The position numbers were made by a program, and so were the translations under genes. Positions 344-30,454 of a stretch of 36,832 nt of DNA are shown here, one piece after another; position 1 is the stretch's first letter; each line of letters starts with the position of its first letter. The notes beneath the pieces were generated by a model, which was given only the letters and a program-made list of their open reading frames with translations, ran no database searches and was not told the DNA's origin. Source of the stretch: a virus; the IMG/VR virus record IMGVR_UViG_3300021963_000338, positions 1 to 36,832 of that record. One strand, written 5' to 3'.

Positions 344-355
344 CCAACACAAACA
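344..355 (+). repeat. CCAACACAAACA element, copy 1
   Basis: Exact 12-base copy starting at the first base after the TAA stop of the upstream gene, in an intergenic gap and in the sense direction of transcription. Confidence 0.75.
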
Positions 356-380
356 CACACACCCCCGAAAGGAGCCTTAA

Positions 381-641
381 ATGGCAGGGAAAAAATCAAG
401 CGGTGGAAGCAATGATAGCCGCCCTAATGGAAAAGCATGGAAAAAGAATCCTGGACCAGATGGAGTCAAATCCAAGTCTGTCTCTAAACCAGGTCGTATT
501 AACGGTCGCGTTGCAAGCAACCATGACAAGCGAGAAGCTTGGAAAGCAGCAGGTGGTCGTGCTGACCACCCAACAATCCCACACTGGAAAACAGGCAAAG
601 TCTTTGGAAAGGATAAAGTAAGTGTTTCCAATGACGCCTAG
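381..641 (+). CDS. Hypothetical basic Gly/Ser/Lys-rich protein
   Basis: 86 residues, start supported by AAAGGAG eight bases upstream. The sequence is basic and polar (many Lys, Arg, Gly, Asn and Ser), with a likely disordered first half and a GRVASNHDKREAW segment. No family is recognised; DNA or RNA binding is only a composition-based guess. A competing frame (328-621) overlaps it but lacks a good ribosome binding site. Confidence 0.6.
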   Translation: MAGKKSSGGSNDSRPNGKAWKKNPGPDGVKSKSVSKPGRINGRVASNHDKREAWKAAGGRADHPTIPHWKTGKVFGKDKVSVSNDA

Positions 642-819
642 TCAGTCGTGGTTATTTCTATTCCTATTGTTCTATTCAATAGGCGTAACAATTTATGCGT
701 ATTACTGGAGATCTAGATACTACGACTCCTATTCATATCGCATCTATGAGCGTAAACAAGAAGGCTACAAGCGTACGCAATTAGATGAGCTGTACTCAAA
801 GTCTTTCTTCAAAGACTAA
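622..819 (+). CDS. Small membrane protein
   Basis: 65 residues from a GTG start that lies about ten bases after AAAGGA; ATG 631 is the alternative (62 residues) but sits too far from that site. One hydrophobic segment (SWLFLFLLFYSIGVTIYAYYW) is followed by a Tyr/Arg-rich basic tail, predicting a single-pass inner-membrane protein with the tail in the cytoplasm. It overlaps the preceding gene by 20 nt. It is the last gene before a 378-base gene-free stretch. Function unknown. Confidence 0.6.
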   Translation: MFPMTPSQSWLFLFLLFYSIGVTIYAYYWRSRYYDSYSYRIYERKQEGYKRTQLDELYSKSFFKD

Positions 820-902
820 TCTTGCACGGGAGCGGGATGAACTAGGTTCAGAAAACTCCCCTCGTAAGACCGCACCATCATGCGGTATACAAATGTGATG
901 GA

Positions 903-932
903 GCCTGTATAGATTTCGCCATCTATGCAGGC
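903..932 (+). ncRNA. 12-bp hairpin, possible structured RNA
   Basis: GCCTGTATAGAT (903-914) pairs over its full length with ATCTATGCAGGC (921-932), with one G-T wobble, around a 6-base loop TTCGCC. No T-run follows, so it is not a classical terminator. It lies in the middle of the gene-free leader region. Confidence 0.5.
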
Positions 933-983
933 ACGTTGGGCAGAGGCATAATAGGTGGCCAAGAACCGAGAAGGAGCATTAGT

Positions 984-1046
984 ATGAAGTACCTTATCTG
1001 TTGTAGGTTAGTCGGGTATCCCATGGGGAAACTACTCCCGACTTAG
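984..1046 (+). CDS. Possible 20-residue leader peptide
   Basis: ATG at 984 is preceded by AAGGAG with a 7-base spacer, a textbook ribosome binding site. The frame encodes MKYLICCRLVGYPMGKLLPT and stops at TAG 1044-1046. The ORF spans a hairpin whose arms are AGTCGGG (1010-1016) and CCCGACT (1037-1043), so a translating ribosome would open that hairpin. This resembles leader-peptide attenuation upstream of whiB, but it could be a chance ORF. Confidence 0.35.
   Translation: MKYLICCRLVGYPMGKLLPT
1010..1043 (+). promoter_or_regulatory. Hairpin inside the leader ORF
   Basis: Seven-base perfect inverted repeat AGTCGGG/CCCGACT with a 20-base loop, ending one base before the stop codon of the 20-codon ORF. 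No U-run follows. Confidence 0.4.
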
Positions 1047-1090
1047 CAACCACTTAAAACAATCGAAACTAAATGCGTTTGCTTATGACA

Positions 1091-1121
1091 GCACACCTCG
1101 GGGCAACCCACGTGTGCCGAG
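1091..1121 (+). promoter_or_regulatory. Possible H-type pseudoknot or alternative hairpins
   Basis: GCACAC (1091-1096) can pair with GTGTGC (1112-1117), while the adjoining CTCG (1097-1100) can pair with CGAG (1118-1121). The two helices interleave as in an H-type pseudoknot. A small GGG-GCAA-CCC hairpin (1100-1109) is an alternative. It lies about 75 bases upstream of the whiB start. Confidence 0.35.
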
Positions 1122-1158
1122 GCTAGAGTCAGGATACCGTCAAGATTGGCGCCTCTGT

Positions 1159-1170
1159 CCAACACAAACA
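1159..1170 (+). repeat. CCAACACAAACA element, copy 2
   Basis: Exact 12-base copy in the untranslated leader of whiB, 27 bases before its start codon, in the sense direction. Confidence 0.75.
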
Positions 1171-1197
1171 AACGGCACACCGACACAGGGAGACTAT

Positions 1198-1467
1198 ATG
1201 ACTGAAATCTATAACCCCGACACGTTGGCCTGGCAAGATAGGGCAGCGTGCAAAGACCTCCCGGTATCTATGTTCTACTACGATCATAATGAACGTGGTC
1301 CAGAACGCATTTATCGAGAAACAGCAGCACTGGCTGTTTGCAAAGGCTGCCCAGTAATAAGACAATGTCTGCAAGACGCAATCAACAGAAAAGATGCTCA
1401 CTCTATTCAGGGTGGAACAACTCCTGTTATGAGAGGTCATAAAATGCGGACAGTCCCAGAAGAATGA
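1198..1467 (+). CDS. whiB: WhiB-family iron-sulfur transcription regulator
   Basis: 89 residues. Start chosen at ATG 1198 after GGGAG; an upstream in-frame GTG at 1114 would add residues encoded by the structured leader. The four conserved cysteines are Cys18 (in WQDRAAC), Cys48, Cys51 and Cys57, spaced C-x29-C-x2-C-x5-C as in WhiB proteins, which hold a 4Fe-4S cluster and bind the primary sigma factor. A GG turn (SIQGGTTP, equivalent to the family's GVWGG) follows, then a basic end. WhiB proteins are confined to actinobacteria and their phages. It probably controls host or phage promoters. Confidence 0.9.
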   Translation: MTEIYNPDTLAWQDRAACKDLPVSMFYYDHNERGPERIYRETAALAVCKGCPVIRQCLQDAINRKDAHSIQGGTTPVMRGHKMRTVPEE

Positions 1468-1477
1468 AGGGAAACAA

Positions 1478-1762
1478 ATGCGAAAGCGAAAACTAGCAAC
1501 AAAAATAGAGCGCATGATGATTGAGGAGGAACTCGAACTTCATGGCTTAGATTCACAACATAGCCGGGCGTATCACACAGGCATTATTGATGGCTTAGGC
1601 CAAGCCCTGTTTGCTATTGACCCTAAGCGTGCTAGACGTAATCCAATCAGCATTGTATGGTTTGATGAAGATTATGATGAACCACGCAAAATAGAACAAC
1701 ACAGGGAAACCATGTTTGATGCAACCACTAGCAGACTATTCGAAACCGTTGAGGCTGAGTAA
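1478..1762 (+). CDS. Hypothetical protein
   Basis: 94 residues, start preceded by GAAGGGAAAC. A very basic N-terminus (MRKRKLATKIER) leads into an acidic helix, a Gly-rich helical stretch (YHTGIIDGLGQALFAI) and an acidic C-terminus. It lies 10 bases downstream of whiB and its stop overlaps the next start (TAATG), so the three genes are probably co-translated. No family recognised. Confidence 0.65.
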   Translation: MRKRKLATKIERMMIEEELELHGLDSQHSRAYHTGIIDGLGQALFAIDPKRARRNPISIVWFDEDYDEPRKIEQHRETMFDATTSRLFETVEAE

Positions 1763-2466
1763 TGGGTGCGTGGTGGATATCAAACTATGATGAAGCCAAA
1801 TCATATCTAGCAGGCGGCCGTAAAAAATGGGACCGACCAATGTATATGCGTGGGCTTCGTCTTCAACAACGAGGAAAAGACATTGCCATTCTAGACAAAT
1901 GGTGTGGCTTTGACCCTGTGTTATTTCATTCAGACGGCACCTTGACCATACAAGCGCCCCGTAGTGTCCCAACAAATTGGGGCGGTACTTGGAACCCACT
2001 AAGAAGTCAAGGCGTCCGATACAACATCAGACACTTCAGTGGTCTTAAAGAACTATTCCAAAAGAATGGGTTAGTGTATATAACCACACAAGATGCTTTA
2101 CGAACTCCATCTAAAGTTCAGAAGTGTCGAGGATGCAGGGGGTCTGGTAAGCGAGACAAATGGTGTTCGCCACCATACTGCCGTAATTCTTTTCCGTGTG
2201 AAGACCACCCGGAATGGAACCCAGGAAATACTCGTGCTTACTGGCACTACGGTGCATGTGAGCATGGAATCTTTGACAGTCACACAATTCCACAAGGAAC
2301 AGATTGCTATAGCTGCAGTGGAACTGGTAAACAAGACTATGGCAATAAACTGATTTCAATAGCTTGGGATGGTTCCCCGCTTAGGTTATTGAATGGCAAC
2401 ATAGTAAAACAACCACCAACCGAACTAGAGAAAAGGATCGCAGCGTATGTCAAGCTTGACAGTTGA
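1762..2466 (+). CDS. DnaJ-type zinc-finger protein
   Basis: 234 residues. The C-terminal half has two CxxCxGxG motifs (CRGCRGSG and CYSCSGTG) of the kind that bind zinc in DnaJ, separated by further Cys and His residues (CSPPYC, CEDH, CEHG). There is no J domain, so it is not a full co-chaperone. The N-terminal 110 residues are Trp/Arg-rich and unrecognised. It probably uses the zinc centre for protein or nucleic-acid contact. It overlaps its neighbours at both ends, by 1 nt upstream and 20 nt downstream. Confidence 0.65.
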   Translation: MGAWWISNYDEAKSYLAGGRKKWDRPMYMRGLRLQQRGKDIAILDKWCGFDPVLFHSDGTLTIQAPRSVPTNWGGTWNPLRSQGVRYNIRHFSGLKELFQKNGLVYITTQDALRTPSKVQKCRGCRGSGKRDKWCSPPYCRNSFPCEDHPEWNPGNTRAYWHYGACEHGIFDSHTIPQGTDCYSCSGTGKQDYGNKLISIAWDGSPLRLLNGNIVKQPPTELEKRIAAYVKLDS

Positions 2467-2908
2467 TTACACTGGAGAGTTCGTCCCTACGCAAGGTTTG
2501 GCAAGCACGCCTGTACAGGCTGCCCATCAAATCATGCAGGGATACATTCCAGCCAACTTAGTTGACCTAAGTACCAACCATAACTTCAGAGATGTTGTGC
2601 TTGGGTACATACTTCGAGACACTACAGACCAGGACACAGTGCTAAGAGCATTGTGCACTGCGATGCGTGGTGCCGCAGATGAAGCGCATGTGAGAATACT
2701 CAGTGAGTATGCAGCATGTGTTGCTTATTCATGGGGCAACTCACAACTAGCGGTGCAAGCAATTGCCCGCAATAAACCACAGGATGCAACAACATTTATT
2801 TGGTCTGTAGCACAAGCTATGTCTAAACAAATGCCTGGACCATTCTATCAAACGCTTGTTATATCTCAGCTGCCTCAAGCAGAGGCTGCATATACAGCAA
2901 GCGTGTAA
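2447..2908 (+). CDS. DUF4192-like protein
   Basis: 153 residues, all-helical in appearance. An FRD motif near residue 47, an Ala-rich helix pair ending in AYSWGNSQLAVQAIARN, and a closing LV-rich helix resemble the DUF4192 family, which is common in actinobacteria and their phages and has no known function. The assignment rests on pattern memory. A second protein of similar layout is at 7400-7981. A ribosome binding site (AAAAGGA) lies inside the upstream gene. The stop is abutted by a CCAACACAAACA element. Confidence 0.55.
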   Translation: MSSLTVDYTGEFVPTQGLASTPVQAAHQIMQGYIPANLVDLSTNHNFRDVVLGYILRDTTDQDTVLRALCTAMRGAADEAHVRILSEYAACVAYSWGNSQLAVQAIARNKPQDATTFIWSVAQAMSKQMPGPFYQTLVISQLPQAEAAYTASV

Positions 2909-2920
2909 CCAACACAAACA
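2909..2920 (+). repeat. CCAACACAAACA element, copy 3
   Basis: Exact 12-base copy starting directly after a TAA stop codon. The context GTAA-CCAACACAAACA is identical to that of copy 1. Confidence 0.75.
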
Positions 2921-3135
2921 ACCGTTAACTCACATATCCATTAGATAAGAAGCACTCGCATAGATACTTGATCTGACCCAAGCCGGAAAGCAATAGCCGT
3001 AGCCTGCGCCGTTATGGTCGAACGTGACATAAAGTCTAACTGACCGTTCTGCCAGGTAGCAAAATTACGTGAGCGAGCCCGTAGTAGCTAAAGTTCCAGC
3101 CTCTCTATTGCCTTCGTGCGTACATCTAATAGATA

Positions 3136-3168
3136 CCCCGGGGCAGACCTTAGAGGTCTGTCCTGGGG
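3136..3168 (+). terminator. Strong hairpin, probable terminator or attenuator
   Basis: CCCCGGGGCAGACCT pairs at all 15 positions (two G-T wobbles) with AGGTCTGTCCTGGGG around a TAG loop, followed by CTTTAACATTTAT. The U-run is short (three), so termination may be partial, acting as an attenuator before the gene at 3196. Confidence 0.65.
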
Positions 3169-3195
3169 CTTTAACATTTATAAGAAAGGAACACC

Positions 3196-3438
3196 ATGTG
3201 TGAAGCATGCAACGAGCATGAAGATGACGACATGCCTAATTTTGATTCGTTGTCAGAGGTTGAAAAACAAGAATTTTACGACTATATTTCTAAGCAAATG
3301 AACTTAGTTATGGAGAAGGCCGAGAACCATGGTGTGTTATTTGATCTAATAACTAAATGGCCTCGTGATAAGCAAGTAGCCTACGAAATGGCTGCAGTAA
3401 TTGAAAACCGCGTCCTAGAAGACGACGATGAAGACTAG
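3196..3438 (+). CDS. Hypothetical acidic protein
   Basis: 80 residues with a good AAAGGA site before the ATG. It begins with a Cys/His/acidic patch (MCEACNEHEDDD) and ends in an acidic run (LEDDDED); the middle is helical. No family recognised. It stands alone between two hairpins (3136-3168 and 3441-3463), so it may be transcribed as its own small unit. Confidence 0.6.
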   Translation: MCEACNEHEDDDMPNFDSLSEVEKQEFYDYISKQMNLVMEKAENHGVLFDLITKWPRDKQVAYEMAAVIENRVLEDDDED

Positions 3439-3440
3439 GT

Positions 3441-3463
3441 TTCCCTAACAAATCGTTAGGGAA
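3441..3463 (+). promoter_or_regulatory. Perfect 9-bp inverted repeat before the MoxR gene
   Basis: TTCCCTAAC (3441-3449) and GTTAGGGAA (3455-3463) flank a 5-base loop AAATC. There is no T-run, so it could be an operator, an mRNA-stability hairpin or a weak terminator. It starts two bases after the stop of the preceding gene and ends 12 bases before the ATG at 3476. Confidence 0.5.
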
Positions 3464-3514
3464 TGTCATAGCAATATGACAAACGATTCCATTACCAAAG
3501 AAGGGGTAAAAGCT

Positions 3515-4963
3515 ATGGATATCGCTGTATTCACAGAATCGTACGAACCAAGTATGGGTGCTAAGCGCCGTCAGGTTCTAATCACACCACACGATGGAAA
3601 TGTACGAATCTATTCACGTGACACTGACGGGACAAAGGGTCCTCACAACAAGTGGGAGGAAACCGATCTTGACAGCATCACAGGACAGATAGGTACTGAC
3701 GAAAAGCTAACACGCACACCGGTTGCTGTATACGTTACAGCAGCAGATGAGCGTGCCATGACGGACAAAGGTTATTCCCCGGTCCTCGGCACTAAGGCTT
3801 GTCAAGCACATACCAAAGCAGCACTAAGCACAGATACTATGCCTTTTGTAGAACGCCTATGCGAAATCTACGAAGCAGTAAGTATTGGTGATGATGCTCT
3901 TGAGGCCCATGTCATAGACAATCGCCGCATGCCAGGCACACCTGTTCCGTTGCAATCAGTTCCAACACAAACAACACCAGCGCCAAGGTTAAATGAAGCT
4001 TTTGAAGCTAAGTTTGATATGCAGGTAACGGCAGTAGAAGGCGGTCGAATGATTGCTGCATCACTGGCCTCTGTACCTCGAATTGAGTTGGCAAAGCGCT
4101 ATGTGCATAGAGATGTCTGGTCCGTTCCGGACTTTGAAGTCTTCGATCATGCTCGTAGTAAGAACATCAATGTTCTAATCTATGGTCCTACTGGTCCAGG
4201 TAAAACCACATCGGTTGAAGCATGGGCTGCTGAACGCGGTCTGCGTATGGCTACCGTATCTGGCAATGCTTCTATGGAGCCAAGCCAAATGACTGGTAAG
4301 TTTGTATCAGATGGTAATGGTTCATTCGCATGGGTTGACGGTCCAGTTACCGATGTAGTACGTAATGGTGGCGTCTTATTGCTCGATGAGGTCAACTTCA
4401 TCAGCCCTAAGATCTACACCGTTCTATACTCATTGTTAGATGGTCGTCGTTCTATTACCTTGTTGGACCATCATGGTGAAGTAATTGAGGCCAATCCAGA
4501 CCTCACTATCTTCGCTACCATGAATCCAGATTACATTGGTACTACACCGCTTAACTTTGCGTTCCGCAATCGTTTTGATATCCAGATTCCTTGGGATTAT
4601 GACGATAAGGTTGAGTCCAAGTTGGTCTCATCCAAGGCATTGCTTGTAGTTGCAAAACAACTACGCACTGAAGCGGCTAAAGGTCAGTACGAAACACCAA
4701 TCTCAACTAACATGCTTCAAGAGTTTGTTAACTTTGTTGACGCTCTAGGCTATGAGTTTGCAGTGGAAAACTTCATTGCTCACTTTAGTTCTGACGAAGC
4801 AGCAAGCGTTAGGTTGGTATTCCAGACTCACGAATACAATATCAAGACAGACTTTGGTATTGAAATTCCTATTGTGGTTGAACAAGAGCCTGAAAGTAAA
4901 ACTCCTGAAGAGCAGCTTCGAGAGTGGGCTGGCGTTTTAGCACAAGCTAATGGGTTGAACTAA
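3515..4963 (+). CDS. MoxR-type AAA+ ATPase
   Basis: 482 residues from ATG 3515, which has GAAGGGG nine bases upstream; an in-frame ATG at 3476 lacks a site. The N-terminal 200 residues are unrecognised. The AAA+ core has Walker A at 224-232 (GPTGPGKTT), Walker B at 286-292 (GVLLLDE), sensor-1 Asn337 in FATMNPDY, and candidate arginine fingers Arg351/Arg353 (AFRNRFD). MoxR-family ATPases remodel partner complexes, usually with a VWA-domain partner encoded next door, as here. The copy 4 element lies inside this gene. Confidence 0.85.
   Translation: MDIAVFTESYEPSMGAKRRQVLITPHDGNVRIYSRDTDGTKGPHNKWEETDLDSITGQIGTDEKLTRTPVAVYVTAADERAMTDKGYSPVLGTKACQAHTKAALSTDTMPFVERLCEIYEAVSIGDDALEAHVIDNRRMPGTPVPLQSVPTQTTPAPRLNEAFEAKFDMQVTAVEGGRMIAASLASVPRIELAKRYVHRDVWSVPDFEVFDHARSKNINVLIYGPTGPGKTTSVEAWAAERGLRMATVSGNASMEPSQMTGKFVSDGNGSFAWVDGPVTDVVRNGGVLLLDEVNFISPKIYTVLYSLLDGRRSITLLDHHGEVIEANPDLTIFATMNPDYIGTTPLNFAFRNRFDIQIPWDYDDKVESKLVSSKALLVVAKQLRTEAAKGQYETPISTNMLQEFVNFVDALGYEFAVENFIAHFSSDEAASVRLVFQTHEYNIKTDFGIEIPIVVEQEPESKTPEEQLREWAGVLAQANGLN
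3962..3973 (+). repeat. CCAACACAAACA element, copy 4
   Basis: Exact copy within the MoxR gene, read in phase 0 as Pro-Thr-Gln-Thr, in the linker before the AAA+ core. Confidence 0.7.
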
Positions 4964-4965
4964 GT

Positions 4966-6891
4966 ATGTTCATTGAAGAACTAGATCAACACCATTGGGG
5001 TGATGCCAGAAAAGAAGATGAACAGGAACGCTCTGTTCGTTTGAATGCATTATGCCGCGTGTACGAACAGGCGGACCGCGTTCTAACTGGCGACCCAGTT
5101 ATAGTCAATGTCGTACCAGATGGCCCCGCACCAGCGTGGTCAGATGGTGCTGCAATCTATATCAATCTAAGTGAGATTGAAGATATAGACCTAGAGACAT
5201 TGACTCAGGTGAACGGCTTGAATTATCACGAGCTAGCGCATCACCTGTATACGCCTCGCAAAGGCACAGAACTAGTTAAGTGGGTTATAGATAACAACTA
5301 CTTCCAAGCATTTAATATCTTGGAGGATCAGCGTATCGAAACTCTGCTTACTGGTAGGTATCCCTCTATCGCACCCTATTTAACAGCAACAGTTGCTCGT
5401 TGGTTAGGTACTTCAGAGGATATAAACGGTAACTATGTCTGCATTCGTGGACGTCGTTATCTCCCTGTTGAGATTAGACAAGCATTCAGAGATGAGTTTG
5501 CATTCCCTGAACTAATCCCAGCAATCATTGACATCGTAGATGAGTATCGATTGCTTGCATTCCCTGCTGGGTATGACAAAGCAAAAGAACTTATCAAGCG
5601 ATTCTACGACGAGGTGTGTGTACCTATGGGTATGACATCGGATATGGACGGCGGTCCCAACAAGTGTGGTGAACGTAGCCCTATATCCAAAGGTCGTCCA
5701 GAGCCAGGTAAGGCACAAGAGAAGGATGCTCAACGAGCAAAGGGCATAGGAACTAAAGAATCAACCTATGTACCTAAACCTAAGGCACAGGCAAGTAAGC
5801 AAGCCGAAGGTAACTCTCAATCTTCTCAAGACTCACCACAAGACATGTCTAACAATGATGGTAATTCATCTAGTCAGACAAATTCAAAAGCCCCAACATC
5901 TGTTCAAGAAGCGTTAGATATACGGGATGGAAATGTAAACAACCCTACATCTACGCAAGCAGGTTCGGGACACGCACCTAGTCTAGGCGGGCTGCCAGAC
6001 AAAATCAATGACATGCTAAACAATGCAATTGATGATGTCCTTGCCCGTAAAGATGTTCAAGCTGATGTCAAAACCAAACAGAAAGTAATTATTGGTGGAG
6101 ACGGAAAGCATGAAGACATCACTAAGCGAGGTAAGTTTGAAGCAACTGATGTGCCTCAAGAAGCAATGATTTCCTATCGCAAGTTTGCAAAGGAACTTCA
6201 ACGTCTTCGTGATGACTCAGAACCTACGTGGTACAAGGAGACACCAACTGGTCGTCTAAATGTACAGCGTGTAATCAGAGGCTGTGAAATTGATCAAGCC
6301 TTTGACCGTTGGGATGAAGGCGATGATGGCTGTGATATTGAAGCAGTCATTCTTGTCGACCGTTCTGGCTCCATGTCTAGCGGACGTAACGATAAGAAAG
6401 CATCTATTGCATGCTGGACAATCAAGCGTGCTCTAGAGCATATACAAGCCCCAGTCACAGTCTATGCATTTGATGATGCTGCTGAGGTTGCGTATACCCG
6501 TAACGAGCTTGCACACAAAACCAAGTACAAGTTCATCTATGGCAATGGTGGTACAGAACCGTATCCAACATTGCTTGCAGCAGAGCAGTTGCTTATGTCT
6601 TCCCGCAAGAAGAATAAGATGCTGTTCATAGTCACCGACGGCGTCTTCAACACAAACAAAAATGATGAGCTAATCGAACGTATTGGCCGTCGTGGAGTAC
6701 TCACAGCCATGACCTTAATCATGGACGATAAAGAGTGGAAGTACTACGTTGAAGACCATAAACAACTAGACGAAGAACAACTACGACACAAGTCGGAAGT
6801 GTTTGCTCGTATTAGTAATGCTAAAGACCTGCTTCCCTTTGCAAAACAGGTTGTAGTAAGTGCCATCAAAAAGCGTTCGAGAATGCGTTAG
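4966..6891 (+). CDS. VWA-domain protein with an N-terminal HExxH metallopeptidase-like region
   Basis: 641 residues, starting two bases after the MoxR stop, so translationally coupled. The N-terminal part has HELAHH (His88-Glu89 to His92) and about 30 residues later NILEDQRIE with Glu120 as a possible third zinc ligand, the gluzincin pattern. Residues 235-345 are a Ser/Gln/Asn-rich linker. The C-terminal VWA domain has the MIDAS motif DRSGS (465-469), Thr530 in GNGGTEP and Asp558 in IVTDG. The layout resembles CobT and other MoxR partners. Proteolytic activity is inference. Confidence 0.8.
   Translation: MFIEELDQHHWGDARKEDEQERSVRLNALCRVYEQADRVLTGDPVIVNVVPDGPAPAWSDGAAIYINLSEIEDIDLETLTQVNGLNYHELAHHLYTPRKGTELVKWVIDNNYFQAFNILEDQRIETLLTGRYPSIAPYLTATVARWLGTSEDINGNYVCIRGRRYLPVEIRQAFRDEFAFPELIPAIIDIVDEYRLLAFPAGYDKAKELIKRFYDEVCVPMGMTSDMDGGPNKCGERSPISKGRPEPGKAQEKDAQRAKGIGTKESTYVPKPKAQASKQAEGNSQSSQDSPQDMSNNDGNSSSQTNSKAPTSVQEALDIRDGNVNNPTSTQAGSGHAPSLGGLPDKINDMLNNAIDDVLARKDVQADVKTKQKVIIGGDGKHEDITKRGKFEATDVPQEAMISYRKFAKELQRLRDDSEPTWYKETPTGRLNVQRVIRGCEIDQAFDRWDEGDDGCDIEAVILVDRSGSMSSGRNDKKASIACWTIKRALEHIQAPVTVYAFDDAAEVAYTRNELAHKTKYKFIYGNGGTEPYPTLLAAEQLLMSSRKKNKMLFIVTDGVFNTNKNDELIERIGRRGVLTAMTLIMDDKEWKYYVEDHKQLDEEQLRHKSEVFARISNAKDLLPFAKQVVVSAIKKRSRMR
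6647..6658 (+). repeat. CCAACACAAACA element, copy 5 (one mismatch)
   Basis: TCAACACAAACA within the VWA gene, read in a different phase from copies 4 and 6 (Phe-Asn-Thr-Asn). Confidence 0.6.
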
Positions 6892-6900
6892 GAGGTAAAA

Positions 6901-7092
6901 ATGTACACAGTATACGATTCATTAACACAAGAACTAATCGAAGTCTTTCAAGACTACGATAGTGCAGAGATGTTCATGTTACATGCATCAGACCTACTAG
7001 CAGACGGTGGAGCTAACCTTTCTATTGAGCCTATATCAACAGCTCAAGAGTGGGCACTTAACAACGGTCTAGAACTAGGGGTACTTGCATGA
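6901..7092 (+). CDS. Hypothetical small protein
   Basis: 63 residues with an AGGAGGT ribosome binding site just after the VWA stop. The product is acidic with alternating hydrophobic residues (YTVYDSLTQELIEVFQDYDS), probably a small folded alpha/beta domain. Its stop overlaps the next start (ATGA). No family recognised. Confidence 0.65.
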   Translation: MYTVYDSLTQELIEVFQDYDSAEMFMLHASDLLADGGANLSIEPISTAQEWALNNGLELGVLA

Positions 7093-7262
7093 GTAAGAAA
7101 AGTGAACTATACATGAGCAGTGAGGCTATGAAGTCTCACGAGGATGCGATATACGAACTGTATAAAGCTGCAACCCGCAAACTGTTAATCAAACACAAAG
7201 CGGAAGATTTACTACCAATGCTAGGACTAGAGGAGGAAACAAATGAGCATGACCCTAGCTGA
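7089..7262 (+). CDS. Hypothetical 57-residue protein
   Basis: Starts at an ATGA overlap with the upstream gene. The product is a Lys/Glu-rich probable helix (MSKKSELYMSSEAMKSHEDA and on), ending LGLEEETNEHDPS. It overlaps the next gene, which has its own strong ribosome binding site, by 20 nt. Function unknown. Confidence 0.55.
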   Translation: MSKKSELYMSSEAMKSHEDAIYELYKAATRKLLIKHKAEDLLPMLGLEEETNEHDPS

Positions 7263-7410
7263 TATGAGTAGGTTAGAAGAACTATCTCACAAGTACGACA
7301 CATTCGAAGAAACAAAGTCTGCAATTGAGTCTGAATTTCCCGGGGTAACCGTAACCCGTACAGAAACAGGCTTCTCAATTACAACTGAGGAGGATAAGAA
7401 TGACAACTGA
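7243..7410 (+). CDS. Hypothetical 55-residue protein
   Basis: Start preceded by GAGGAGG. The product is MSMTLADMSRLEELSHKYDT continuing into a short beta-like segment (FPGVTVTRTETGFSITT) and a polar tail. It overlaps the previous gene by 20 nt and the next by 11 nt, typical of a tightly coupled small-gene operon. Not recognised. Confidence 0.55.
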   Translation: MSMTLADMSRLEELSHKYDTFEETKSAIESEFPGVTVTRTETGFSITTEEDKNDN

Positions 7411-7981
7411 AACCATAACTCGTAAAGAGGCATGCGAACTTATACGAAACTGTATCGGTAAGGAGATGCCAGAGGGGGAAGTGTTTAACAAGATTGTCTA
7501 TGCAGTGAACAATGACTTTCAAGTCAGAGACTTTCTTTTAGGCTTGCCACAATACTATGACACCCAAGAGGTAATTGACTTCCTTGGACATATGTCAACC
7601 TACTCAAATGTAGAAGATGATATCCCCTTCATTGTTGTAACAGCTTCATTAGCTTATGAAGTAGGTGCAATGGAGGAATTCTACAAGCATGTAGGTTATG
7701 CATCAGTCCACGGACCAGATTACTCTTTAAATAAAGTTCTTATGCGAGCAGCAAGTTTAGGGTATCCAGGAAAGCTGCTTACTAAAATGCGAGAAGAACT
7801 TCACGCAAAGGTTATGGAACTTTGTTATAAAACCGAACCTGACTTTGTAATTAAACCGAATGGAGATGACAATGGTAAATACGTTCCTTCCGTTCCCAAC
7901 GTATACAGCAGTGGCGAAAACACTGGACATGAAACGGCTGGGCAAACAGAGGGTGGAAGCATTCCAAATCCTCAAAGCTAA
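7400..7981 (+). CDS. DUF4192-like protein with a polar tail overlapping the next gene
   Basis: 193 residues, start preceded by GAGGAGG. The helical region with VRDFLLG (near residue 42), a helix pair containing ASLAYEVGAMEEFYKHV, and a closing helix resembles the DUF4192-like layout of 2447-2908, though the match is weak. The last 37 or so residues are Gly/Ser/Asn-rich and overlap the next gene for 110 nt in another frame, a long overlap for this genome. Function unknown. Confidence 0.55.
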   Translation: MTTETITRKEACELIRNCIGKEMPEGEVFNKIVYAVNNDFQVRDFLLGLPQYYDTQEVIDFLGHMSTYSNVEDDIPFIVVTASLAYEVGAMEEFYKHVGYASVHGPDYSLNKVLMRAASLGYPGKLLTKMREELHAKVMELCYKTEPDFVIKPNGDDNGKYVPSVPNVYSSGENTGHETAGQTEGGSIPNPQS

Positions 7982-8324
7982 TCTGGGAATGACTAAAGGC
8001 TGGGTCAATCATCCGGCAGCCGTAATGTGGCGAGGTCACGAAGGTAACCTTGCTATATACACGATAGTCATGTGTGCACGATGGGTGTCCTTAGGATACA
8101 AAGATAACATTGCCAAACAAGTTATCGAGTTAATGGACAAACTCCCTGTCGATTCATATACAGATCCGTGGTGGTTGGGTAACCAAGAATTCCACGAGAG
8201 TCATCAATCAAACCTCAAACGCAAAGATCCAATTCATTATCAGTTTGAAGTTGAAGATGACCGGCCATATCTATGGCCAACACAAACAATCGGAACACTA
8301 CGCACAACTAAAGTAAAGGAGTAA
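7872..8324 (+). CDS. Pyrimidine-dimer-glycosylase-like protein (Pyr_excise / MSMEG_6728 type)
   Basis: 150 residues. The signature N-terminus MVNTFLPFPTYTAVAKTLDM, then KRLGKQRVEAFQIL and WVNHPAAVMWRGHE, matches the MSMEG_6728-type family related to T4 endonuclease V (DenV), a base-excision enzyme that cuts the glycosyl bond at UV-induced pyrimidine dimers. ATG 7872 is chosen because GGAG sits six bases upstream; ATG 7860 and 7866 are alternatives. Repair activity is inferred from the family. An element copy lies near its 3' end. Confidence 0.75.
   Translation: MVNTFLPFPTYTAVAKTLDMKRLGKQRVEAFQILKANLGMTKGWVNHPAAVMWRGHEGNLAIYTIVMCARWVSLGYKDNIAKQVIELMDKLPVDSYTDPWWLGNQEFHESHQSNLKRKDPIHYQFEVEDDRPYLWPTQTIGTLRTTKVKE
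8277..8288 (+). repeat. CCAACACAAACA element, copy 6
   Basis: Exact copy near the 3' end of the glycosylase-like gene, phase 0 (Pro-Thr-Gln-Thr). Confidence 0.7.
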
Positions 8325-8327
8325 CAA

Positions 8328-8732
8328 ATGCAGGTAAAAGATCTAATAACCTCACGAGTATGTGGCAACACAGTATTCCAGAATTCGTGGATCTGGTATT
8401 GCGACGAATGCCGTAAACACGGGACTGCTACAAGTTCCCGTGAAGCTGAATATATGGCTAGCTGTCACGATACTTACTTCTCATATGAAAAAGTAGATTG
8501 GGAAGTAGTAGGAGAAGAGTACGACGCACTTATGTACGGAGAGGCTTCTCCAGAACAACGTAAGTCTATGACTTGGGAAGGCCTATGTATATCAGAAGGA
8601 GCTATGTACATTATTGATGAAGGGAACAACATCACGTATAGCTTTGGAGATGACTATGATGATAAAACTCCTAACCAAGTAACTGATATCGATAAGATGA
8701 TTGATATGCAAAAGCAGTTAGGACTGGACTAA
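8328..8732 (+). CDS. Hypothetical protein with a Cys/His patch
   Basis: 134 residues, start after AAAGGAG. The N-terminal part has WYCDECRKHG and a later SCHD, suggesting a small zinc-binding unit. The C-terminal half is acidic and aromatic. Its stop overlaps the next start (TAATG). No family recognised. Confidence 0.65.
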   Translation: MQVKDLITSRVCGNTVFQNSWIWYCDECRKHGTATSSREAEYMASCHDTYFSYEKVDWEVVGEEYDALMYGEASPEQRKSMTWEGLCISEGAMYIIDEGNNITYSFGDDYDDKTPNQVTDIDKMIDMQKQLGLD

Positions 8733-8929
8733 TGTCTAAATACCTCGTGCGTTGTAAGGCATCTGTTTACTATGATGTAGAAATTGAAACTAATGAGAAA
8801 TGGGACGCTGAAGCAGAGGGTCTTGACTCATTTGGAAACATTCTGGATGACTGTAAATTAGCCATGCCTTTGGAATGGGAAGGGGTAGAGGTATGGGAAG
8901 TAGAAGAAAAGGAGGAAGAAGATGCCTAA
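8732..8929 (+). CDS. Hypothetical acidic protein
   Basis: 65 residues. Alternating beta-like start (YLVRCKASVYYDVEIET) and a Glu-rich C-terminus (VWEVEEKEEEDA). Coupled to both neighbours by overlaps of 1 and 8 nt. Not recognised. Confidence 0.6.
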   Translation: MSKYLVRCKASVYYDVEIETNEKWDAEAEGLDSFGNILDDCKLAMPLEWEGVEVWEVEEKEEEDA

Positions 8930-9485
8930 TTGGTGTCAAAATACTTTAATAATAAAAGGCCCTACTGAAGACGTAACAAGATTACTAGAAGCAGTAGAAG
9001 GCTCTGATACAAAGTTATCTTTAAGAAAGATAATAACTACTCCGGAAGAGTTACAGTCTAAGTCTTCTCCCAATAGGGATGAGGATGATGTAAAAAGATT
9101 AACAGAACTTTACGGAGCTAAAGATTGGTACGACTGGCAAGTTGCAAACTGGGGTACCAAATGGGATATAGAAGCAACTATCTATGATGACAGTATGAGT
9201 CGTTCTCCCGGATACAGCACATATACGGATCCAGAAGAACGAGTTGTTCAGATGTCGTTTGATAGTGCATGGTCTCCGCCAATACCGGCCATAGCTATGC
9301 TGGCAAAACAATTCCCCAACACAAACATCTATCATTCATATGATGAATCCGGATGTGACTTTGCTGGATACAACATGTATTCTAAAGGGAGGTGTATAAA
9401 AGAAGTAGAGTGGCCGTCATACAGCCATATACGTACGTATATTGAACCTGATGCGGACATATTCGATTATTTCCCCGAAGACTAA
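8922..9485 (+). CDS. Api92-like / DUF1281 ferredoxin-like fold protein
   Basis: 187 residues. The opening MPNWCQNTLIIKG and the central YGAKDWYDWQVANWGTKWDI are hallmark segments of Api92-like (DUF1281) phage and plasmid proteins, which are thought to have a ferredoxin-like fold and unknown function. Start after GAGGAAGAAG. An element copy lies within the gene. Confidence 0.75.
   Translation: MPNWCQNTLIIKGPTEDVTRLLEAVEGSDTKLSLRKIITTPEELQSKSSPNRDEDDVKRLTELYGAKDWYDWQVANWGTKWDIEATIYDDSMSRSPGYSTYTDPEERVVQMSFDSAWSPPIPAIAMLAKQFPNTNIYHSYDESGCDFAGYNMYSKGRCIKEVEWPSYSHIRTYIEPDADIFDYFPED
9316..9327 (+). repeat. CCAACACAAACA element, copy 7
   Basis: Exact copy within the Api92-like gene, read in the same phase as copy 5 (Pro-Asn-Thr-Asn). 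Confidence 0.7.
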
Positions 9486-9497
9486 GAAGGGATTAAA

Positions 9498-9740
9498 ATG
9501 GCAATTCATCACTTAAAACTAACGTTTGACGTACACATAGCTGAGTGGCGTATAGACGACCCTAGAAAACCGGAAAACAACAACTGGTCTCTAGAGGTGT
9601 TTGACGAAAACTTAGGGCAGTGGATTAGATTGACTGATTGTACTAGACCTGGGGAAAGTCATATGATTTCTAAAATCGAATACTTAGGTAAGTATGAACC
9701 AGAAGAAGCCTCCGGTAGCACTCCGGAGGACCTCAATTGA
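9498..9740 (+). CDS. Hypothetical beta-rich protein
   Basis: 80 residues, start after AGAAGGGA. Probable beta sheet (HHLKLTFDVHIAEW; WSLEVFDENLGQWIRL), followed by an acidic tail ending STPEDLN. A 7-bp hairpin (9709-9729) lies within the last codons. Not recognised. Confidence 0.6.
   Translation: MAIHHLKLTFDVHIAEWRIDDPRKPENNNWSLEVFDENLGQWIRLTDCTRPGESHMISKIEYLGKYEPEEASGSTPEDLN
9709..9729 (+). terminator. Weak hairpin at a gene end
   Basis: CCTCCGG/CCGGAGG with a 7-base loop, spanning the end of the preceding CDS. No T-run follows, so it may only mark a pause site or stabilise the mRNA end. Confidence 0.3.
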
Positions 9741-9803
9741 CGTAGTGAACTCTTAGTTAGAGCTTACACGTATATTCTACAACACACAAGAAGGGAAAAA
9801 TAC

Positions 9804-10052
9804 ATGCTAGACATGCAATTTGCTAGCAATACTGTTAGAGATAAACACATACGCAAGCTAGTATCTGCCCTGCAAGATGCTGGACTAGAGGTGAGAGTCA
9901 CCAAAGGTAAGCAGCATATACGGGTGGAAAACCCCACCACCCACAAGGTGGTATTCTTTGGGGGTAACTCTTTGGGGGACTGGCGAGCTGCAAAAAATAT
10001 TCTACGTGACTTAAAACAGGTAGGATTTGACCAAGATATAAAACTAGGTTAG
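9804..10052 (+). CDS. HicA-like small protein
   Basis: 82 residues, start after AGAAGGGA. The order helix (IRKLVSALQDAGLEVR), strand with TKGKQH (His38 at the place of the catalytic His of HicA), strand (IRVENP...KVVFFGG) and helix (AAKNILRDLKQVGF) matches the dsRBD-like HicA fold. HicA toxins are mRNA interferases paired with HicB. No HicB-like partner is visible next door, so this is more likely a stand-alone phage RNA-binding protein than a toxin-antitoxin pair. Confidence 0.6.
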   Translation: MLDMQFASNTVRDKHIRKLVSALQDAGLEVRVTKGKQHIRVENPTTHKVVFFGGNSLGDWRAAKNILRDLKQVGFDQDIKLG

Positions 10053-10061
10053 GAATAGCAC

Positions 10062-10349
10062 ATGGCTAAAATAACAAAAACACTAAAAGCAACGCTTACT
10101 AAAAACACATCTGTAGAAAAGGGTGGGGCTTGGCTTCTCACTATTATCGAAGGGACGTCTGGAGCAATCTCAGATGGTCCGGGTGTGCACTCTGCATGGG
10201 CTAACCCATCAGCAGCTAAGCGTTACCTAAAGGCGTACGTTCAGGAAAATACTCCACGTAAATCTATTAAGATGGTTGTACAAGCAACCAATGAGGCTGA
10301 CAAGCCTACACATCTATCAGGTGAGCTAAGCTGGAAGGAGTCTGCATAA
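10062..10349 (+). CDS. Hypothetical protein
   Basis: 95 residues, start after AGGAA. Basic N-terminus (MAKITKTLKATLTKN) followed by a beta/helix pattern, with WANPSAAKRYLKAYV as a probable helix. Its stop overlaps the next small gene (TAATG). Not recognised. Confidence 0.6.
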   Translation: MAKITKTLKATLTKNTSVEKGGAWLLTIIEGTSGAISDGPGVHSAWANPSAAKRYLKAYVQENTPRKSIKMVVQATNEADKPTHLSGELSWKESA

Positions 10350-10459
10350 TGGACTTCGAAACAGTATTGCCTATCAAAACAGTTAACGATATAGTTAAAG
10401 AACTTAAAGAAACAGAAGAAGAAAATACTTGCAGTTGCGGTAATTGCACCTGCAAATAA
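10349..10459 (+). CDS. 36-residue peptide with a metallothionein-like Cys tail
   Basis: Starts at a TAATG overlap with the preceding gene. The peptide has an acidic helical part (VNDIVKELKETEEEN) and ends in CSCGNCTCK, a C-x-C-x2-C-x-C cluster like those that hold zinc or copper in metallothioneins. It is the last gene of block 1, 13 bases before the terminator. Metal binding is inferred from the cluster alone. Confidence 0.5.
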   Translation: MDFETVLPIKTVNDIVKELKETEEENTCSCGNCTCK

Positions 10460-10472
10460 GACACAAATCAAA

Positions 10473-10500
10473 TGGCCCCTCGTCTTCGGACGGGGGGCCA
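10473..10500. terminator. Bidirectional terminator with UUCG tetraloop
   Basis: TGGCCCCTCGTC and GACGGGGGGCCA form a 12-bp stem (one G-T pair) capped by TTCG closed by C-G, the extra-stable UUCG tetraloop. It lies between converging genes ending at 10459 (+) and 10521 (-). Flanking A/T tracts are short. Confidence 0.8.
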
Positions 10501-10502
10501 AA

Positions 10503-10514
10503 TGTTTGTGTTGG
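10503..10514 (-). repeat. CCAACACAAACA element, copy 8 (minus strand)
   Basis: Exact copy on the minus strand, between the stop of the acidic-peptide gene and the shared terminator. It is again in the sense orientation of the transcript that reads it. Confidence 0.7.
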
Positions 10515-10520
10515 CGAATT

Positions 10521-10658
10521 TTACGAGTCTGATTCGTCGCTATCCAACTCATCAAGAAGTAAGTCGTCTAGCTCGTCTAACTCTTCATCATCTAAATCAA
10601 AGTCTTCGAAGTCATCTTCAAAGTCTTCGTCAAACAGATCTGGATCTAGATCTTCCAT
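10521..10658 (-). CDS. 45-residue extremely acidic peptide
   Basis: ATG at 10658 has GGGAG five bases upstream. The product (MEDLDPDLFDEDFEDDFEDF and on) has 27 Asp/Glu of 45 residues and no Lys, Arg or His, with regularly spaced Phe and Leu that could form one face of a helix. It is the last gene of block 2, about 40 bases after ribonucleotide reductase. Such composition is known from DNA-mimic proteins of phages (for example Ocr), but also from simple acidic tails; no homology is claimed. Confidence 0.6.
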   Translation of the reverse strand: MEDLDPDLFDEDFEDDFEDFDLDDEELDELDDLLLDELDSDESDS

Positions 10659-10698: not shown

Positions 10699-12732
10699 TT
10701 ATTTATTATCTTTGATCAATTTAACCTCACAGGCATCTGTGGTGCAATAGGCCTCGCCCACCGCGTCAGCTGCCATACCGGCGTATACTCCGGCGAAGTC
10801 AATTGGGAATAACTTCATGCGGGCGTCCTCATACTCTTCCTCAGTAATCTGAGTGTAGGGCATCTGTGGATATACGGTGTTGCCCATAGGCAAGAATGAA
10901 ACAGTCTTAAGCTGACCATCATGCATGTGCAGGATAGATGCGATGCTGTCGGCTTCTTTTTCTGGGTCAAAGGTCACAGTTACGGATACCGAGTTATCTG
11001 ACCAGTATCGCTGAGTAACAACCGCAAGGGCAACCTTCTCATGAACCGATACTTCCTTTTCGGCACGCTTAGCACTAGTCTTAATTGGAAAGAAGACAAC
11101 CGAGGTTGTATCTGGAGATTCTGAAGCCGGCTCTACCCGATAATTTGCCATCTTAAATAGAGGCAGCATTGGGTCAGAGTTGGCAAAGCGAATAGCTCTA
11201 TTAAAGAACTTACCTCCTGAAGCCCAGTGAACTCCAGGTGACTCACCTGCAAGAATTGACACCGTGCCTGATGGCTTGACTGTCGTCATCTTAATTGACT
11301 GGCGAACACCCAACCATTCAGAGTAAGACTCGTCGTACCCCTTGACAACAGAGTACCCCTCGTTTAGCCAATCACGTAGGACAGTCCAGCCATTGTTGTC
11401 TGCAAAGTTAGCGATACCTGAGATTGAGGTACCAATACGGCGGTTGCGCTGCATGATGGCGTTTGTCTCCTCCCAGTGGGTTGGGAGTAGGGTTACGGTC
11501 TTGGCGTATAGGTAGGCAAACTTTAAGGTGCGCTTGAAGTCCTCCAACGAATCGTGTCTATTCAAGTAGGTCTCTACAAGGGTGCACATTTCAAAGGACT
11601 CTAGGCTCTGCTCGGCACAAGGGTTATATCCAGCAACTCGCCAATCCTTGTTATTTGGTGGGTCAATTAGACGTCCGTATTTACGGGAAACATCCATCCA
11701 AACTACACCTGGCTCACCGTTAAGCACAATACCGTCAATGATTTTAGAGAAATCAGAGCCGACCTTTGCCTCTACGGAGTTGTTAGACATCCAAGCCCAA
11801 CCTGGGTTTTTAGGATCATAGGAGTTACGCTCAGGATAAACGTTGGCATTCTTTAAGTTGAGAAAGTCCTCGTCATCAATTCTGCCAATTAGGAGTTCCG
11901 CGGAACGTCGCACGTTTCCTGATACTACGCAAACACCAATTAGGTTACCGATATCCGCAATATCTTTACGGGTCAGTTTCTCACCGGCACGTCCCTTAAA
12001 CAATTTATGAATATAGTTATGCAAACGCTCTAGAGGTTCGTGTCCCGCGGCAGTTCCTCCAAAGGTTTTAATCGGAGTACCTGCTGGTCGGATTTGTGAG
12101 TAGTCAAAGATAGGCTTCTTCGAATCTGGCTTAAGGTAGGAATTGATGACGGCCGAGGTTGACTCGACCCAACCTTCGCGGGTATCCGGGACGATGATTG
12201 GTTCGGTATCTGGCTGTGGTTCATAGATTGTGAATTCCTTGTCTGCGCCCTTGTCATCGAAGCCAACTCCCACGCCAAGCATGGAGGCTTCCATAAGGAA
12301 TGCGAATGGTTTTGCTGGGTTGAGCTTTGTCATTTCTGTTGTAGAAACAAAAGCACAATTCTGTAGGGCGGCAGAGTTCCTCTGCTCATTAACAATTGAA
12401 GTTCCCATTACCCATAGTCCACGTCCTGGTGGAGTCCACTTCAACTGGAATAGGCGATCAAAAGCTTCTTTGGCAGATGCTGCTGCCTTTGAATCTGACC
12501 ATGGAAGTCGCTGGGATTTTGCATGGTCTTTTTGTAGAGAGTACATGCCATTGATAACACGTTCACAAACCTCTACCCAAGTTTCTTTAGTCCCATCCTC
12601 TTTAAGCCGAGAGTATGTTCTCAAGAAAGTAATTTCTCCTACGCTATTTCCTGCTGCGTCTGAGTATCCCCAAGGAACAGTCTTACCTTTATATGAGTTA
12701 ACAAAGTCTTCGGCTAATTTAAAAGAAAACAA
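10699..12732 (-). CDS. nrdJ: Class II adenosylcobalamin-dependent ribonucleotide reductase
   Basis: 677 residues from a TTG start with AGAAGGG upstream. It reduces ribonucleotides to deoxyribonucleotides with a B12 radical. It resembles the monomeric triphosphate reductase of Lactobacillus leichmannii (739 residues): active-site Cys372 in NPCAE with Glu374, the redox pair Cys126 (LQNCAF) and Cys383, which is 11 residues after Cys372 as in that enzyme, and a C-terminal pair Cys663/Cys668 (CTTDAC) for re-reduction. No partner subunit is needed. It supplies dNTPs for phage DNA synthesis. Confidence 0.93.
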   Translation of the reverse strand: MFSFKLAEDFVNSYKGKTVPWGYSDAAGNSVGEITFLRTYSRLKEDGTKETWVEVCERVINGMYSLQKDHAKSQRLPWSDSKAAASAKEAFDRLFQLKWTPPGRGLWVMGTSIVNEQRNSAALQNCAFVSTTEMTKLNPAKPFAFLMEASMLGVGVGFDDKGADKEFTIYEPQPDTEPIIVPDTREGWVESTSAVINSYLKPDSKKPIFDYSQIRPAGTPIKTFGGTAAGHEPLERLHNYIHKLFKGRAGEKLTRKDIADIGNLIGVCVVSGNVRRSAELLIGRIDDEDFLNLKNANVYPERNSYDPKNPGWAWMSNNSVEAKVGSDFSKIIDGIVLNGEPGVVWMDVSRKYGRLIDPPNNKDWRVAGYNPCAEQSLESFEMCTLVETYLNRHDSLEDFKRTLKFAYLYAKTVTLLPTHWEETNAIMQRNRRIGTSISGIANFADNNGWTVLRDWLNEGYSVVKGYDESYSEWLGVRQSIKMTTVKPSGTVSILAGESPGVHWASGGKFFNRAIRFANSDPMLPLFKMANYRVEPASESPDTTSVVFFPIKTSAKRAEKEVSVHEKVALAVVTQRYWSDNSVSVTVTFDPEKEADSIASILHMHDGQLKTVSFLPMGNTVYPQMPYTQITEEEYEDARMKLFPIDFAGVYAGMAADAVGEAYCTTDACEVKLIKDNK

Positions 12733-30147: not shown

Positions 30148-30454
30148 CCTGATCTATCCATTCGTCTAATGTTAAGCCTTGTTTTTTATATTTTCTTTGA
30201 GCTGCATTTCTTTCTCTGTGGGACATACCACCAAAGATTCCGTGTAGCTCATCGTTTATAATAGCCTCTTTTAAGCACTCTTTGCGAACTGGACAGGCCG
30301 GTCGACCGTCTCGTCCCCAACAAATTGCTTTAGCCTTATCAGCTATTGGTTTGTATAAAGCCTTGTCTCTTGGAGGAAAAAATATTTCTGTATCTTCCCC
30401 ACGACACTTGGCGTCGTATCTCCAAGCCCACTTGGGCTCGTCTGGGTTATCCAT
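30125..30454 (-). CDS. Second WhiB-like protein with an expanded Cys spacing
   Basis: 109 residues. Cys17, Cys45, Cys54 and Cys60, with GIFGGM downstream, mark a WhiB protein; but the central pair is C-x8-C (ICWGRDGRPACPV) instead of the usual C-x2-C. A basic C-terminal tail (HRERNAAQRKYKKQG) follows. It probably binds the host sigma factor or DNA. It overlaps the exonuclease gene by 23 nt. Confidence 0.8.
   Translation of the reverse strand: MDNPDEPKWAWRYDAKCRGEDTEIFFPPRDKALYKPIADKAKAICWGRDGRPACPVRKECLKEAIINDELHGIFGGMSHRERNAAQRKYKKQGLTLDEWIDQDGKYGQT

Follow-up and report, generated by a model that had tools for sequence, protein, structure and literature searches.

An oriented, conserved 12-base word in uncultured actinobacterial-type phages and its possible role in transcription punctuation

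Why should a short word recur through one block of a viral genome, inside genes and between them, always facing the same way relative to transcription? The question is raised by IMG/VR record IMGVR_UViG_3300021963_000338, a 36.8-kb virus fragment whose entire 36,832 nucleotides were analyzed (the window), and in which the 12-mer CCAACACAAACA occurs in seven exact copies and one single-mismatch copy between positions 344 and 10,514. Comparison with related contigs identifies the 12-mer as a real, conserved, selected, and oriented signal in a large family of uncultured actinobacteria-type viruses.

Copies, Conservation, and Spacing of the Word

Two of the plus-strand copies abut a TAA stop codon: that at 344..355, which lies 25 nt upstream of an ATG at 381, and that at 2909..2920, with aligned counterparts in the related locus L012 at L012:5684 and L012:7964, respectively. 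The copy at 1159..1170 (+) lies in the whiB leader (start codon 1198), where relatives G001 and G007 also carry one. Four further plus-strand copies are intragenic and fall in two reading phases. Those at 3962..3973, within a MoxR-type AAA ATPase gene, and 8277..8288, within a pyrimidine-dimer glycosylase-like gene (counterpart at G001:77158), are read Pro-Thr-Gln-Thr; that at 6647..6658 in a VWA-domain gene, the mismatched form TCAACACAAACA with T as its first base, is read Phe-Asn-Thr-Asn and has a counterpart in G001 and G007, and that at 9316..9327 in a DUF1281_C gene is read Pro-Asn-Thr-Asn, the aligned position in G001 being without a copy. The eighth copy is reversed (10503..10514, minus strand) and sits at a junction, between the last stop codon of the minus-strand ribonucleotide reductase (RNR) operon and the hairpin of that operon, a GC-rich inverted repeat at 10474..10499 identified as a shared terminator-like hairpin from its sequence and from the equal layout in relatives. 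A very acidic 45-residue open reading frame (10521-10658, minus strand) closes the RNR operon, immediately ahead of the junction copy. The positions and gene contexts reported in the initial annotation thus hold, and no further copy with at most one mismatch lies elsewhere in the record.

Relatives were sought by scanning IMG/VR with the VWA, MoxR, and RNR proteins, which returned contigs of about 100 kb that share the gene block of the window. The MoxR-bearing contigs mostly carry an array of 3-13 copies (at most one mismatch) in one orientation, followed by one reversed copy at the RNR junction, and array-carrying relatives reach down to about 53% MoxR protein identity. The initial annotation had staked its proposal on related phages carrying the element at the same places, and they do so, with six of the eight window copies aligning with a copy in L012. 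Sites are gained and lost in place within alignable DNA, a pattern of site turnover rather than of mobile insertion.

Most copies are confined to one block of 10-13 kb, with few elsewhere in the genome, and dense arrays hold 7-13 copies about 1.1 kb apart. Mean array spacing is 1.05-1.9 kb with a coefficient of variation of 0.16-0.47, and spacing is more regular than random in 19 of 20 arrays (p ≤0.04; p ≤0.0001 in the densest). A set of 122 non-redundant sites comprises 110 array copies, all co-directional with the block and none reversed, and 12 reversed copies, found chiefly at the junction. A start directly after a stop codon, which is true of the copies at 344 and 2909, is no rule across the family, where 10 of the 110 array copies have it, about twice the background of 5.4%.

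Selection on nucleotides is seen in the MoxR linker, where linker length and the codons beside the copy differ between lineages and the 12 bases stay constant. This copy, CCA ACA CAA ACA, keeps both sequence and frame in about 20 lineages, the sole change being a T as first base in two of them; in three divergent lineages it is absent or placed elsewhere. Synonymous positions are therefore fixed while the flanks diverge, a property that the initial annotation had suggested testing at the coding copies. Over the 122 sites, positions 2, 4, 6, 8, 9, and 11 are invariant, and variation is found at positions 1 (C/T), 7 (C/T), and 12 (A/C). Transitions make up 22 of the 24 substitutions at positions 1-11, compared with 48-60% in comparisons of the same genomes, though 14 of the 24 fall at one position and so represent few independent events. 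No position is conserved in the 70 bases upstream (-70 to -1), and in the first ten bases downstream C is frequent (38%) and T scarce (14%). Some lineages have adopted a variant of their own: array copies in G030 are CCAACGTAAACA or CCAACATAAACA (CCAAC[G/A]TAAACA; A6G, C7T), with CCGACATAAACA at one, the G019 array uses CCGCAACAAAC, and L129 uses the pair TGTTTGGGTTGG/CCAACCCAAACA throughout. Since the arrays of G030 and G019 each have their own variant, the word changes in concert.

Could A-rich codons (Pro-Thr-Gln-Thr, Asn-Thr-Asn) simply have generated the word by chance or codon usage? The A-rich coding strand does place control words of the same composition in sense 86% of the time in array regions. 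Abundance is another matter: a word model built on trinucleotides predicts about 0.02 exact matches to the 11-base core across the window, and in the array regions of 12 phage genomes the motif is by far the commonest among 792 same-composition words, with 73 exact copies compared with a mean of 0.24, in line with the earlier estimate of far fewer than one copy by chance. The use of two reading phases, the non-coding copies, the fixed synonymous positions in MoxR, and the regular spacing also speak against a codon-usage origin, which is already refuted by the counts and retains a negligible probability. The 86% figure does bear on orientation. All eight window copies are in sense, as had been noted, but because similar words are mostly in sense on an A-rich coding strand, this is weak evidence alone; it is the 110:0 ratio across the family that carries weight. 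Outside arrays, where the motif is 21 times in sense and 9 times antisense (70%, compared with 67% for control words), the sense bias is largely a composition effect.

Two further explanations were rejected. Selection at the peptide level is incompatible with the two reading phases, the non-coding copies, and the fixed synonymous sites, and a promoter is excluded because the word has no -10/-35-type partner at a fixed distance, only the C-rich tract at +1 to +10.

Terminators and Sister-Lineage Layouts

In most relatives a reversed copy is flanked by a stop codon on one side and a strong hairpin on the other. The 40 bases beyond the word fold at a mean of -21.5 kcal/mol in reversed copies, compared with -5.4 in array copies and a background of -5.8, so that on the plus strand the hairpin runs into TGTTTGTGTTGG, the complement of the word. 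Array copies show no RNA hairpin beyond the background folding energy, for which reason an adjoining RNA structure was rejected for them, and the window has no Rfam match.

The same 12-mer is found in genomes without MoxR. In G017, G025, and G029 it stands between genes of the accessory block, antisense to them and downstream of terminator-like hairpins, and the coding strand there reads TGTTTGTGTTGG. A pattern scan located this antisense, terminator-following form (type II) in 63 stretches of viral contigs, and window-family genomes are not among its matches. At 107 non-redundant type II sites, TGTTTGTGTTG[GA] is followed by CC.CCC.CCC; a variable complementary stem of at least 4 bp encloses this C-rich stretch in 39 of the 107 (about 3 expected from shuffles), GAGAGA comes next in most sites, and a CRP-like TGTGAN6TCACA lies downstream in many (51 with at most one mismatch, compared with 0.4 expected). 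Put together, the type II element is a conserved intergenic TGTTTGTGTTG[GA]-stem-CCC.CCC.CCC-stem-GAGAGA, to which CRP-like sites ahead of each gene module are often added downstream (L258-L316, L079, L085, L094, L097).

A third group carries the word on both strands, where it caps either end of long palindromes whose arms vary yet stay complementary. Many of these palindromes are placed between a terminator hairpin and the control region of the next gene, and compensatory change in the arms is seen in L196 and L210. Many are adjoined by TTATCCACA, which resembles a DnaA box, or by GTTATC repeats (L196-L215).

A Polar Stop Site and Its Rivals

These layouts lead to the tentative proposal, favored here at less than even confidence, that a putative trans-acting factor reads the 12-mer as a polar transcription-stop or insulator site. 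The site would act in cis and be recognized as sequence by a factor that may be phage-coded or specific to the host lineage; a polymerase with TGTTTGTGTTGG on its coding strand would be stopped, and one with CCAACACAAACA on its coding strand would pass. In the window family, the array would then stop antisense transcription entering the plus-strand block, and plus-strand read-through would be kept out of the RNR operon by the reversed junction copy immediately beyond the shared terminator. In the sister lineages, a site after each terminator would back that terminator up, and the head-to-head doubled site would serve as a two-way insulator between gene modules. The polar stop is preferred because one rule fits every layout, the TGTTTGTGTTGG direction being either past a terminator or antisense within a block. 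From the conservation, orientation, spacing, concerted change, and positions observed, we infer factor binding, an action on transcription, and a direction of blocking.

In support of a polar stop are the MoxR copy fixed amid diverging flanks, counts far above controls, non-random spacing, concerted drift, the 110 of 110 co-directional array copies, the hairpins beside reversed copies, the accessory-block copies of G017, G025, and G029 behind terminator-like hairpins, and the palindromes after terminators. Several points weigh against it. No binding factor was recognized, it is not obvious why a strict barrier should recur at 1.1-kb intervals, and the minus-strand RNR operon carries a single copy. 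In addition, both the palindromes and the hairpin loops, C-rich and closed by variable complementary stems, suggest a single strand that folds, something not required of a plain double-strand DNA site. A broader version of the polar stop, on balance improbable, is a previously undescribed phage-wide polarity code. A single word, standing alone every kilobase inside operons, behind terminators with a C-rich hairpin loop, or head to head as a cruciform-like insulator, would mark the allowed direction of transcription through a dedicated factor common to a large uncultured phage family and re-tuned between lineages. Intrinsic terminators themselves share with the junction, type II, and many palindromic copies a place beside a GC-rich hairpin, and TGTTTGTGTTGG sometimes continues a T-rich tract; they differ in that array copies have no hairpin and in that the 12-mer, unlike a U-tract, is nearly invariant.

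The folded forms, together with the almost exclusively transitional substitutions, keep RNA pairing alive as an explanation. Here CCAACACAAACA in mRNA would be bound by a protein, or would pair with a small or read-through RNA carrying UGUUUGUGUUGG, an account that seems unlikely overall. Wobble pairing tolerates transitions, the G030 variant is wobble-compatible too, the array copies are followed by the C-rich, T-poor tract, and the folded TGTTTGTGTTG[GA]-CCC.CCC.CCC elements of sister lineages, with their covarying stems, resemble an exposed seed beside a hairpin. Against pairing stand the small number of independent substitution events, the absence of window-family genomes from the type II matches, the background-level structure around array copies, and the accessory-block copies of G017, G025, and G029 that are antisense to genes. 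What survives of the sense-RNA signal proposed in the initial annotation is a conserved, selected, and oriented word with a substitution pattern compatible with pairing; its sense bias proved largely compositional, and sister copies are antisense or palindromic. Its nut-like antitermination variant is not supported. Like a lambda-type nut/boxA site, the window-family word belongs to the sense strand of an operon and is A/C-rich without structure, but nut sites have a boxB hairpin and one or two promoter-proximal copies, neither of which is seen here (the array copies carry no boxB-type hairpin), and no N-like or Nus evidence was found.

By analogy with the stoperators of Cluster A mycobacteriophages (L5 and relatives), the co-directional sites may instead be bound by a phage protein that halts sense transcription of the early or accessory block, either to switch from early to late expression or during quiescence. 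Such a silencer is the closest published precedent and would explain the window family well; in both cases a short asymmetric word in many dispersed copies, mostly not promoter-bound, drifts in sequence between relatives, and in the window-family arrays it is, like stoperators, co-oriented with transcription (PMC6550527; PMC9283540). It is nevertheless rather improbable. Stoperators are 13-14 bp long without dyad symmetry, occur at 20-30 sites throughout the genome, and are bound by a phage-coded repressor that blocks elongation by RNA polymerase, whereas the window-family core is a 12-bp asymmetric word, palindromic only in sister lineages, and its sites are evenly spaced, often intragenic, and concentrated in one 10-13 kb block; in the sister lineages orientation is reversed, and the word takes antisense and palindromic forms accompanied by folded partners. 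No repressor, integrase, or partition (ParA) family is among the matches listed (Pfam, PHROGs) for the 61 non-structural proteins of G002, though a phage-coded binder outside recognized families is possible. A site for DNA metabolism, whether a Chi-like nuclease regulator, a polar fork barrier, or a single-strand priming site, is less probable again. One-way orientation and even spacing would suit it, as would the G/T-rich complement TGTTTGTGTTGG, a property shared with Chi, the TTATCCACA motif that adjoins some palindromes, and the primase, DnaB, RecA-like, and Cas4-like proteins that these phages encode. Chi and polar Ter-type sites are one-way and regular in density as well, but the usual Chi is 5-8 bp and host-genome-wide, whereas the present word is confined to one phage block and its sister-lineage positions are tied to terminators. 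Homology breakpoints fall within 50 bp of sites only weakly more often than expected in the window family (12% compared with 7%), with no enrichment in type II.

Two related candidates were rejected. Integron-like or recombination cassettes fail because the breakpoints are not at the sites, and the boxes run in the reverse order of those in attC. A Chi at the genome entry end was set aside because several contig ends fall within one highly conserved region, probably that of the capsid, and have the appearance of assembly breaks.

Dispersed, oriented short sites are a known kind of element. Among actinophages, Cluster K mycobacteriophages carry short one-way repeats, the start-associated sequences, at the start codons of many genes, and the window-family 12-mers differ from these in being independent of gene starts. 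Within the literature searched, only papers on unrelated subjects contain the 12-mer; none reports it as a signal or describes its even spacing, its intragenic copies, or its three interchangeable layouts. There is a fair chance that it represents a categorically new kind of signal. As a strongly selected regulatory signal common to many uncultured actinobacterial-type phage contigs, the word, with its predicted blocking direction and lineage variants, gives a concrete starting point in the search for a new phage regulatory factor, and it allows a test of whether phages police antisense or read-through transcription. A second signal, structured and beside apparent CRP sites, is contributed by the type II elements.

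Neighboring Genes and Further Repeats

The genes that host or flank the copies include a WhiB-family transcription factor gene at 1198..1467 (+; PF02467, E 7.6e-14), the MoxR-type AAA ATPase gene at 3476..4963 (+; PF07728, phrog_249), the VWA/peptidase-like gene at 4966..6891 (+), and the RNR gene at 10699..12732 (-; phrog_367), whose operon ends at the junction copy. The window also encodes DNA polymerase I, a UvsX-like recombinase, Cas4-like and other exonucleases, and an endolysin. A second WhiB-family gene lies in the replication operon (30203-30424, minus strand), and a small protein encoded at 9804-10052 (+) has weak HicA-toxin similarity below the Pfam cut-off. Judged by DNA polymerase and RecA, the nearest cultured relatives belong to the Streptomyces phages, among them Alone3 and BRock (37-41% identity). 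The layout of BRock is similar, with small plus-strand genes that converge on a minus-strand replication block, and no equivalent array is present in the parts of the BRock and Alone3 genomes covered.

Other repeated elements were noted in the compared genomes. G028 (L246-L252), a phage that shares the RNR, carries about 25 copies of GCAAAAAGTAAAA, usually after TA and some immediately before ATG, which extend over 69.6-112.3 kb (most at 74-99 kb), are mostly one way, and lie 0.3-4 kb apart. In G026 (L228-L234), a promoter-like GGTTGT-N13-TACTACCGATAAT that ends in ATG is repeated upstream of many genes between 2 and 22 kb. Finally, at L157 (G001:1150-1215), the stop codon of the most conserved gene, probably that of the major capsid protein, is followed by a GC hairpin lacking a T-tract, by an A/C-rich spacer, often CCAACACAAAC, and then by the next ribosome-binding site, an arrangement repeated at matching places in G007, G016, G017, G025, and G019.

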